Shown: positions 2,084 to 6,711 of the stretch, piece after piece
How positions within the stretch are numbered: the stretch's first letter is position 1
How the letters are laid out: each line of letters opens with the position of its first letter
Virus record (IMG/VR): IMGVR_UViG_3300042392_000350
Span: 1 to 24,519 of that record
Length of the DNA stretch: 24,519 nt
Source of the DNA: a virus
Direction: 5' to 3' (one strand)
Made by a program: the position numbers and the translations under genes
Notes under the pieces: model-generated
Databases searched by the model: none
Told to the model about the DNA's origin: nothing
Seen by the model: the letters and a program-made list of their open reading frames with translations, nothing else

Positions 2084-2193
2084 AATCTTTTTATTTCAAA
2101 ATATAGATGTGCGGTTATATAAATTAAAGAAGCCAAAGGAACTGATATCAGCATAAACTTTAGCAGTTCATAAATAAATGTTAATTGTTTCAT
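2065..2193 (-). CDS. small single-span membrane protein (42 aa)
   Basis: Found by reading the gap. The ATG at 2193 overlaps the stop of the preceding 245-residue gene as ATGA. It encodes 42 residues with one continuous hydrophobic stretch (KFMLISVPLASLIYITAHL, about residues 12-30) and a basic C-terminal end, the pattern of a one-span membrane peptide. The coupling to a well-supported gene makes translation likely. No function assigned. Confidence 0.5.
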   Translation of the reverse strand: MKQLTFIYELLKFMLISVPLASLIYITAHLYFEIKRLCLKYL

Positions 2194-2927
2194 AATTGGT
2201 TTTGTAAAAATAGGTACAAAGTGTAACGTTTGCACTCGTTTTTGATAAATATTTCGTTATTTAATTTCTCTAAGTCTTTAGGTGTTTTAGCCGTTACCTT
2301 GTAATGTGCTATTATCTTTTTCTTTATTTGATCTGCCTTCTCTGGACTTAGATTCTCCTTGTTTAGTTCCTTTCGTTTCCATAGTACATCAAAAGCCATT
2401 GTATTTAGCAACTCCCATCCTCTTTTTGCCGACTTATTCCAGTTTTCGTATAATGCCTCAATAATTTCATCATCTTGGATTTTAGGTATCTCTACTGGTT
2501 GCGGTTCTACATAGGTTTTTTGTCTTACTTGCAAAGCTATCGGCTTATAAGCTGCCATCACATCCCCAAAGAATTTAGGTGTAAACATAATTGCTTTGTC
2601 AACTGATAATTTCCCCATTGCGTAAAGTTCAAAAGCTACTCCAAGTTCCTTTAGTTTAAAGTTTCCATAGTTTTTAATTACAAATTCGCAAAGGAATTGA
2701 AATAGCTCTATTGTAGGTGTTTGACATCCGCTTAAAGCAATACAGGTTTTTAAATGCTCTTTTACCTCAATAGGTGAGCATCTGCTAACACTCATTGTAT
2801 CTAAAGCAACCACAACTTTTAATTCATCTGGTTCAAGTTTGTTATAGACTTCTAAGTGCATTAGCCTCTCGTTCTGCGTAAGAGAGTTTATGGATTGGGG
2901 TAATACTTCGGTTAATAATTTCATCAT
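2190..2927 (-). CDS. unknown protein downstream of the replication initiator (up to 245 aa)
   Basis: I do not recognise a family. The protein is largely helical and soluble. Residues 24-120 form a compact region (HLEVYNKL ... FQFLCEFVIKNYGNFKLKELGVAFE) and a lysine-rich half follows. Two ATG starts compete: 2927 (overlaps the initiator by 86 nt, 245 residues) and 2861 (overlaps by 20 nt, 223 residues). The shorter form fits the usual spacing of this operon, and the extra N-terminus looks unremarkable. The place directly after an initiator is where helicase loaders or lambda P-type partners are often encoded, but no AAA+ Walker motif or DnaB-interaction motif is visible, so that role would be a guess. 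Confidence 0.72.
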   Translation of the reverse strand: MMKLLTEVLPQSINSLTQNERLMHLEVYNKLEPDELKVVVALDTMSVSRCSPIEVKEHLKTCIALSGCQTPTIELFQFLCEFVIKNYGNFKLKELGVAFELYAMGKLSVDKAIMFTPKFFGDVMAAYKPIALQVRQKTYVEPQPVEIPKIQDDEIIEALYENWNKSAKRGWELLNTMAFDVLWKRKELNKENLSPEKADQIKKKIIAHYKVTAKTPKDLEKLNNEIFIKNECKRYTLYLFLQNQL

Positions 2928-3492
2928 TCCAAGATTTGTTGTTTAAAAATGTTTCTGGGTTTTTACGGAATTGTTTGTCTGGTACTGATTGCTTGTAAAG
3001 GTCAATATAATTCATTGCATTTTGCCTTTCTATATCGGTTAATTTATTCCACTTCTTTTTTAACTTTTGCTTATCCCCTACCTTTTTATCATAATCATTC
3101 CAAAACCATTCAAAATCTATATTTATATTTTCATTTATAGTTATAGTTCTATTTTCAGTTTCAGTTTCCATATGCTTAGCATATGCTTCGCTAGTGCTTT
3201 CTTTTTTAGGTGATTTAGCGTTATTTCGCCTACTTTCACTAAATTTTTGCCTTCTAATGGTTTCATTAAACATTCTTTCGTTGTAGTATAGACCATCTTC
3301 AACTTTAAATTTATCCCAAATCTCATTGTCATATGCTTTACATATGCTTAGCATATCCTTTTCACTTAATTTGCCTTTTTGATGTTGTAAGCACAAAAGT
3401 CTAATGTATTTACCGACCTGTTCATTATCCATTGTGAAAGTGCCACTAAGAAAATCGCTTGTGTAAAATAACACCGCTGGGTCTTTAGCCAT
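2842..3492 (-). CDS. phage replication initiator (O-like organisation)
   Basis: I start at ATG 3492 (216 residues; MAKDPAVLFYTSDFLSGT), since that opening is typical of the family; a frame extension to 3516 adds eight unlikely residues. Residues 1-90 resemble the winged-helix N-terminal domain of phage and plasmid replication proteins of the Lin1244/Lin1753 or DUF1376 type: a short segment, one amphipathic helix with LLCLQHQKGKLS, then a helix ending RRQKFSESRRN. Residues 91-126 are a polar linker. Residues 127-190 (FEWFWNDYDKKVGDKQ ... KNPETFLNNKSWND) match the C-terminal helical domain found in many phage initiators. The gene itself carries two pairs of iteron-like repeats and an AT-rich tract in the linker codons, as in lambda O. 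It probably binds those repeats and recruits host helicase; that is inferred. Confidence 0.78.
   Translation of the reverse strand: MAKDPAVLFYTSDFLSGTFTMDNEQVGKYIRLLCLQHQKGKLSEKDMLSICKAYDNEIWDKFKVEDGLYYNERMFNETIRRQKFSESRRNNAKSPKKESTSEAYAKHMETETENRTITINENINIDFEWFWNDYDKKVGDKQKLKKKWNKLTDIERQNAMNYIDLYKQSVPDKQFRKNPETFLNNKSWNDEIINRSITPIHKLSYAEREANALRSL
3169..3188. repeat. iteron pair 2, CATATGCTT x2 with 11-bp period
   Basis: CATATGCTT begins at 3169 and again at 3180. The first copy also forms part of a 17-bp hyphenated palindrome, CATATGCT-T-AGCATATG (3169-3185). The repeats fall on linker residues 102-108 of the initiator. Confidence 0.75.
3330..3349. repeat. iteron pair 1, CATATGCTT x2 with 11-bp period
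   Basis: CATATGCTT begins at 3330 and again at 3341, the same 11-bp period as pair 2, and continues as AGCATAT to 3356, giving 7-bp inverted arms around one base. Pair 1 and pair 2 are 161 bp apart. I saw no further exact copy elsewhere in the window; the closest is a one-mismatch hit near 24254. Confidence 0.75.
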
Positions 3493-3498
3493 AAAAAT

Positions 3499-3551
3499 AA
3501 AAAAGGCTCTCGGCATCCACCCCAGTAGGATTAGGGTTTCAGCTTTGAGCC
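3499..3551 (-). promoter_or_regulatory. structured leader before the initiator gene
   Basis: On the minus strand GGCTC (3551-3547) pairs with GAGCC (3509-3505), enclosing a smaller ACCC/GGGT pairing (3537-3534 with 3522-3519), and is followed at once by six T residues (3504-3499). The initiator ATG is 7 nt further on. The form suggests an attenuator or a regulatory leader. The 37-nt interior is long for a simple intrinsic terminator, and the stems are short, so this is tentative. It does not match a riboswitch class I know. Confidence 0.35.
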
Positions 3552-3597: not shown

Positions 3598-3792
3598 CTA
3601 ATTAACCGAATATTGTGCTACTTGCTTTTTATTTTTTAGCTTAACAATGGTAGTTTTTATGTTCATTCCATCATTCCTAAGATCAGCTATTCGTGCTGCT
3701 AATCTAAAGCAACCGAACTTGTTTAAAGCATCAATAGGGGTTAACTTTCTACCTTTATTTAGGTAGTTTGCGATTTGTTGGTTTTGGCTCAT
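3598..3792 (-). CDS. helix-turn-helix protein (HTH_39-type)
   Basis: This 64-residue protein has the pattern of the short phage winged-helix family often labelled HTH_39: QNQQIANYLNKGRKLTPIDALNKFGCFRLAARIADLRNDGMNI (residues 3-45), where the TPIDALNKFG helix and the FRLAARIADLR recognition helix are well kept, followed by a short basic strand. Such proteins are common in early regions of Bacteroidota phages. It lies just upstream of the promoter-like site and palindromes that precede the initiator gene, so it could regulate that promoter or act at the origin. Both are inference. Confidence 0.75.
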   Translation of the reverse strand: MSQNQQIANYLNKGRKLTPIDALNKFGCFRLAARIADLRNDGMNIKTTIVKLKNKKQVAQYSVN

Positions 3793-5308: not shown

Positions 5309-5746
5309 TTAAATAAGCACATTTAAGTTGAAAACATCCTTTTTTATGGTATCATCAAACTTATTTGACAATTGACCCCTAATCTTTTGGATTGAGTGCA
5401 AAACTGTTGTCCTATCCCTATTGAAGATTTGTGCTATTTCCTCGCCATTCAATTCGGTTTTTTCCTTAGTTAAGTACATAGTCATTTGCCTTGCCAAAGT
5501 AACCTCCTCGCCTCTATATTTGGACATCATTTGTCCATATTTAATTTGATAGTAATTACACACTTTTTCGGCTATTTCAACCGCATACTCCTTTTGTTGT
5601 TCTTTGTCCATTCTTGTTGTTTTTATGTTTAAATGTTTGTCTAATAAATCCTTTAATTGATTTATCTCTTGCTTTAGTTTTTTGTTCTTTTCTCGCAAAA
5701 CCTCTATTTCAAGTTCTGCCATATATGATTTATGTACTTCTTTCAT
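5309..5746 (-). CDS. coiled-coil protein with DnaA domain IV and no ATPase
   Basis: This 145-residue protein has two parts. Residues 9-40 form a heptad-like coiled coil (ELEIEVLREKNKKLKQE then INQLKDLLDKHL). Residues 53-125 match the C-terminal DNA-binding domain IV of DnaA: VCNYYQIK, SKYRGEEVTLARQMTMYLT (76-93), LNGEEIAQIF and the signature NRDRTTVLHSIQKI (109-122), equivalent to GRDHTTVLHA. The AAA+ and ATP-binding domains are absent. In DnaA the His of this signature reads a base of the 9-mer box; here it is Arg (R112), so specificity may differ. It could bind the phage or host origin, compete with host DnaA, or regulate transcription. The start at 5746 overlaps the upstream stop as ATGA. 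Confidence 0.85.
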   Translation of the reverse strand: MKEVHKSYMAELEIEVLREKNKKLKQEINQLKDLLDKHLNIKTTRMDKEQQKEYAVEIAEKVCNYYQIKYGQMMSKYRGEEVTLARQMTMYLTKEKTELNGEEIAQIFNRDRTTVLHSIQKIRGQLSNKFDDTIKKDVFNLNVLI

Positions 5747-6480: not shown

Positions 6481-6711
6481 TTAGTTTTTATAGGTTTTGT
6501 TATAATAGTCCATACCACCTTCAAATTCAAATGATTCATCTCTTTTGCCATTCCATACGTTGATTTCGCCATTATCAAAAGCATTTCTTAAGTCAGCTTT
6601 TTCCATTGGCAAATACTTTTCTTCAATAGTTTTAGCTAATTGTTCTGGAAGGAATGTAAAGGTGTGAGCAGTTTTAATGTACTCTAATAGTAATTGCATT
6701 GGTGTTTTCAT
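6481..6711 (-). CDS. small protein, MKT-x-MQ paralogue A (76 aa)
   Basis: A 76-residue protein beginning MKTPMQLLLEYIK and carrying EKADLRNAFDNGE in the middle. Its neighbour upstream begins MKTAMQHLIDELK and has KERNQIEDAYNNAK at the matching place. The two look like tandem duplicates of one small family that I recall from other Bacteroidota phages, where several copies often stand together. Function unknown. Confidence 0.65.
   Translation of the reverse strand: MKTPMQLLLEYIKTAHTFTFLPEQLAKTIEEKYLPMEKADLRNAFDNGEINVWNGKRDESFEFEGGMDYYNKTYKN

Follow-up and report, generated by a model that had tools for sequence, protein, structure and literature searches.

The replication initiator gene of this phage DNA contains short repeated sequences that very probably act as iterons for the winged-helix, DUF1376-like N-terminal domain of the protein that the same gene encodes, and that would make up a replication origin next to an AT-rich tract for unwinding. 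What emerges most clearly as new is that, in sequence comparisons across DUF1376 proteins, what are predicted to be the initiator's own sites recur in two places, the codons of the helix-turn-helix and the codons of the linker between the protein domains. The comparisons demonstrate selection at the DNA level on the word, on how its copies are spaced and placed, and on its coupling to the N-domain; binding, dimer formation, opening, origin activity and loader recruitment are what we infer. The window, by which we mean the entire 24,519-nucleotide stretch that was analysed, is a 24.5-kb virus record without end repeats and is probably a phage fragment; its nearest genomic relatives are mostly in Bacteroidota assemblies.

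Repeated sequences within the initiator gene

An exact-match search of both strands of the window reveals four copies of the sequence CATATGCTT, starting at positions 3169, 3180, 3330 and 3341, against an expected count of 0.41, and none of 100 shuffles of the window reaches four. All four lie within the initiator gene (2842–3516, minus strand), and there is no copy elsewhere in the window on either strand; the core CATATG alone has a single extra copy, at 6709. Because the record lacks end repeats, this confinement to the initiator gene holds for the window only. Additional copies elsewhere in the genome had been suggested as a check in a first-pass annotation of this DNA, and three longer relatives have one or two copies of CATATGCTT beyond the gene, none of them in an 11-bp pair.

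The arrangement of the repeats has five main features. First, the copies form two pairs, each with an 11-bp period and separated from one another by 161 bp, exactly as the first-pass annotation had described. Second, each pair is part of a hyphenated palindrome around a single base, as was also noted then: the pair at 3169/3180, CATATGCT-T-AGCATATG, is perfectly palindromic, and the pair at 3330/3341 is CATATGCT-T-AGCATATC, with a single mismatch at one end. Third, a degenerate copy, GATATG (3352–3357), which the earlier reading had missed, lies in register and lengthens the upstream cluster to three sites; this cluster I (3330–3357, minus strand) reads GATATG-CTAAG-CATATG-TAAAG-CATATG with 11-bp spacing, is kept in type A relatives, and covaries with the linker. 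Fourth, cluster II (3169–3188, minus strand; AAGCATATGCTAAGCATATG) is situated in the inter-domain linker, and directly after it in gene direction is an AT-rich tract (3111–3168, minus strand) in the polar-linker codons. A recount of this 58-bp tract gives the same 47 A/T as originally reported (81%), a richness equalled by 1.2% of the 58-mers in the window, and the tract is a candidate unwinding element. Finally, the four exact copies use all three reading frames (gene nt 171, 182, 332 and 343). Of 100,000 synonymous-codon resamplings that hold the protein fixed, 33 yield four copies of AGCATATG and 200 yield two 11-bp pairs, so that chance and protein sequence are a poor explanation even for this single gene.

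The AT-rich tract is itself composed of short strand-asymmetric 6-bp repeats (GAAACT/GAAAAT..ATAAAT), which are possibly single-strand binding sites, and other DUF1376 phages (L399–L413) have 7-bp AACCAAT/AACCATA repeats in the AT tract. In the annotation deposited for Vibrio phage 1.183.O, a CRISPR spacer is called inside the DUF1376 gene (L413:1861–1890), and this is probably a misreading of repeats.

The initiator protein and neighboring genes

The initiator gene has 224 codons and its product matches PHROGs replication initiation and primosomal proteins (E down to 5e-11); in most relatives the start corresponds to the second Met, at 3492 (MAKDP). The N-terminal domain (residues 17–82; 3271–3468, minus strand) is the predicted iteron reader and is DUF1376-like. 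The window protein scores 16–19 bits against Pfam DUF1376 (PF07120), below the 30.1 cut-off, and the N-domain alone matches with an E value of 0.0017, also under Pfam's cut-off; among the N-domains of 44 relatives, 36 reach E<=0.01 against the family, with a best value of 4e-12. AlphaFold2 modeling of the N-domain (44 sequences; pLDDT 88, pTM 0.75) predicts a winged-helix fold, and in both the full-length and the N-domain models helices at residues 31–47, 52–59 and 64–67 are followed by a beta hairpin at 71–78 and then a long helix (full-length numbering). Foldseek searches with two models return weak PDB matches that include many winged-helix proteins, none with an E value below 0.1, and sequence searches of solved structures with profiles of the N-domain and of the downstream gene give chance-level matches only. 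Rfam and tRNA scans give no matches. Cluster I occupies codons 54–63, which correspond to helix 2 and the turn of the helix-turn-helix; a placement in the recognition helix was considered and dropped, and because the models put the cluster on helix 2 and the turn we refer to it simply as lying in the helix-turn-helix. The C-terminal domain (residues 132–200; 2917–3123, minus strand) is near-identical in phages with other N-domains and is presumed to recruit partners; a match to PHROG 270 spans residues 106–200.

The downstream gene (2190–2927, minus strand; phrog_26016) overlaps the initiator gene by 86 nt, is conserved beside it, and occupies a putative helicase-loader position. Its product has no match to loader families; in five other phages the gene following the DUF1376 gene codes for DnaC, a helicase loader, replication protein P or DnaB. 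The GC skew, proposed at the outset as a further check on origin location, runs one way in the window and in three longer relatives (31–44 kb) with no minimum at the site, and as it is monotonic it neither locates nor excludes an origin. The window also encodes (5309–5746, minus strand) a protein whose DNA-binding domain resembles DnaA domain IV (Bac_DnaA_C, E 2e-21) and which lacks the AAA+ part. A single DnaA-box-like site is present in the window (3460–3468, inside the initiator gene), where 5.5 are expected.

Conservation of the repeats and natural domain swaps

Scanning 2.9 million viral contigs yielded 158 relatives, 80 of which were kept. Loss of the repeats from close relatives with a conserved initiator had been raised as a possibility, but the 34 distinct type A genes retain both clusters, with scattered single losses and few changes. 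The separation of the two clusters varies among relatives (161, 174 or 186 bp); looping between them is an idea. The 2.9 million viral contigs were also scanned, as DNA only, for the 20-mer double site of cluster II, AAGCATATGCTWAGCATATG (A/T at one position), and because protein similarity is unused this represents an independent check. There are 63 sites in 62 contigs, and all 63 are inside ORFs matching this initiator family; most are in the linker, where they code for (K/E)AYAKHM, and five are in the helix-turn-helix, where they code for KHMLSIC in another frame. The relatives and the shuffles thus support the earlier suggestion of iteron-like sites and an AT-rich tract within the initiator gene, and show that these are kept beyond codon needs. 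Neither of the two checks proposed at the outset, for copies outside the gene and for loss in close relatives, spoke against that reading.

Natural domain swaps bear on the identity of the reader. The C-domains of three relatives, L048 (type B), L050 (type C) and L070, are 93–100% identical to that of the window over 75 residues (from NIDF onward), and their N-domains share 44, 50 and 20 of 96 residues with it, respectively. The words follow the N-domain and not the C-domain: the window has AAGCATATGCT, and the swapped genes have GGTCATATGACC-type words, AACC(N4)GGTT, or GTATNNATAC, the last of these present as three linker copies at 11 bp together with a DnaD or replisome-organizer-like N-domain (class D relatives). 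As the words change with the N-domain on a near-identical C-domain, the protein's own N-domain is most likely the reader. A different protein could in principle read the repeats, such as the HTH_39 protein (3598–3792) or the DnaA domain IV-like protein (5309–5746), both of which are encoded nearby. This seems very unlikely, given that the word varies with the initiator's N-domain while the C-domain stays near-identical, that in 62 contigs the double site is found in initiator genes alone, and that DnaA-box-like sites are scarce in the window (one against 5.5).

Covariation and spacing in divergent lineages

For a broader comparison, N-domains were clustered at 75% identity into 37 lineages, with the genes that prompted the hypothesis included, and each 40-nt segment was scored by its best ungapped match to the linker (nt 266–335 from the KDP codons) within the same gene and across genes. 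Segments within nt 101–180 stand out, with a peak at 121–160, and the helix-turn-helix segment scores 10.7 against its own linker and 7.4 against the linkers of other genes (z=9.6; p=2e-4, the permutation floor); the recognition word itself differs among the 37 lineages. Segments away from the helix-turn-helix are flat, those at 81–120 (p=0.02) and 361–400 (p=0.05) are marginal, and the one at 241–280 was discounted because it overlaps the linker. Clear matches are present in 24 of the 37 lineages, in 19 of these 24 the match is inverted or in a different frame, and 13 lineages have no clear match to cluster I.

A second, independent set of 25 further DUF1376 lineages, drawn from Rac, Pseudomonas and related searches, has other words; it includes phages of Pseudomonas, Bordetella and cyanobacteria as well as the Rac prophage of E. 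coli. Segments within nt 101–220 again score (p<=0.001, z 3.3–4.4), at a contrast lower than in the first set, as does a segment touching the linker (nt 276–320, p=0.006). A segment on the start-codon side, nt 1–45, also scores (p=0.002); we have no explanation for it, and it counts against the interpretation.

The spacing is also distinctive. An 11-bp repetition in the helix-turn-helix segment is seen in 10 of the 37 lineages, compared with 2.0 in synonymous shuffles (z=6.9), and in 9 of the 25, compared with 1.0 (z=7.7). A 22-bp repetition comes next in the first set (z=5.4), and the in-frame periods of 9, 12 and 15 show no enrichment over synonymous shuffles. Since 11 bp shifts the reading frame, protein repetition and simple slippage fail to account for this pattern, and one helical turn fits. 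It is therefore extremely improbable that the repeats stem from protein-level repetition, slippage or chance, an explanation to which the 12-bp in-frame repeats of type B relatives (GHM..GHM) and the occurrence of two 11-bp pairs in 0.2% of synonymous resamplings lend something; against it, in addition to the frame-shifting spacing, are the encoding of different peptides by the same DNA word, the existence of inverted copies (e.g. AACCATTAGGTT / AACCTAATGGTT), and the retention of the words in the relatives sampled.

The words and their layout differ between groups of relatives. Type B relatives have GGTCATATGATA-like words with 12-bp spacing and at other gene positions; type C relatives have AACCATTAGGTT in the helix-turn-helix codons, with the reverse complement in the linker in three; and L084, L086 and L291 have AAACCCA words. 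The initiator of L279 is longer (325 aa), its N-domain being followed by a different segment, and there AACCTAATGGTT is at nt 574 and not at about 311.

Proposed mode of action

We propose that the winged-helix N-domain of the encoded protein would bind the iterons within its own gene. The individual site, AGCATATGCT, is a short palindrome that a dimer probably reads, and with sites one helical turn (11 bp) apart adjacent protomers would share one face of the DNA. Cluster II and the adjoining AT-rich tract would constitute the core of the phage replication origin, with bound initiators straining and opening the tract, and the C-domain would recruit a helicase or its loader, possibly via the protein that the downstream gene (2190–2927) encodes. 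Cluster I would give the same protein a further array, as part of a larger initiator complex or as a control site.

Alternatively, the initiator could bind these sites for autoregulation, by repressing or roadblocking the transcription of its own gene, with the origin being elsewhere. Control of their own synthesis is common among initiators, cluster I is apart from the AT tract, GC skew does not indicate the site, and evidence for binding sites alone proves no origin. Nonetheless, we consider this unlikely. The sites lie well inside the coding sequence, 130–350 nt from the start, and an AT-rich tract follows cluster II, the AT excess peaking just after the linker sites in both the 37 and the 25 lineages. 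Moreover, in lambdoid phages it is sites within the initiator gene that constitute the origin (PMC7466680), and a role for the repeats as origin iterons is the reading that we favor.

Relationship to other replication origins

The first-pass annotation described a lambda-like origin, and the general plan bears this out: in oriLambda, and in Stx phage origins, the middle of the initiator gene holds initiator-bound palindromic repeats and, after them, an AT-rich tract (PMC7466680), the binding being predicted in the present case. In lambda the iterons are 19-bp imperfect inverted repeats located with the AT-rich region in the middle of O, and two iterons plus the AT tract are enough for unwinding (PMC7466680). 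The description does not extend to the domain family or to the size and layout of the sites. First, lambda has four 18–19-bp iterons in one block (annotated at gene nt 349–433 of O), whereas here 10–12-bp sites at 11 bp are arranged in two clusters 161 bp apart. Second, the N-domain of lambda O is a Phage_rep_O domain, with matches to PF04492 and TIGR01610, and the window protein matches neither, being DUF1376-like instead. Third, the codons of the lambda O N-domain contain no iteron-like word, whereas here a second cluster is present in the helix-turn-helix codons.

The YdaU protein of the E. coli Rac prophage has a DUF1376 N-domain like that of the window, and its C-terminal part is common to phage replication protein O genes; the next gene, ydaV, codes for a putative ATP-binding protein. 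The linker of ydaU (L317:6171–6977) contains two copies of GTTCAAAC and one of GTTTGAAC, and its N-domain codons contain GATGTTGAA; in ydaU itself the segment-to-segment match is weak (score 9–9.5). Rac carries an active origin, oriJ (PMC3945230), whose position was not found in the literature searched, and the ydaU linker is a possible seat for it. SPP1 G38P with oriL and oriR offers a further parallel as a phage origin-binding protein with discrete origins (PMC3485210), origin binding here being predicted. The DnaD or replisome-organizer-like N-domain of the class D relatives is the point of sequence comparison with SPP1 G38P and the replisome organizers of Gram-positive phages. A search of the literature for iterons in Bacteroidota phages gave nothing useful, and none of the papers that mention DUF1376 in the literature collection searched deals with its function in title or abstract.

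On balance we lean towards a broader view, with rather less assurance than for the repeats of the window, in which DUF1376 proteins are a large family of phage initiators whose helix-turn-helix codons contain their own target site, exchange of the N-domain transfers specificity along with the sites, and both arrays work as a single origin. This would provide a testable job for DUF1376, a domain found in phages and prophages across many bacteria, including Rac of E. coli K-12, and candidate origins and recognition words could be read from sequence. A single stretch of DNA would then serve both as the codons of a recognition domain and as the site that the domain recognizes.
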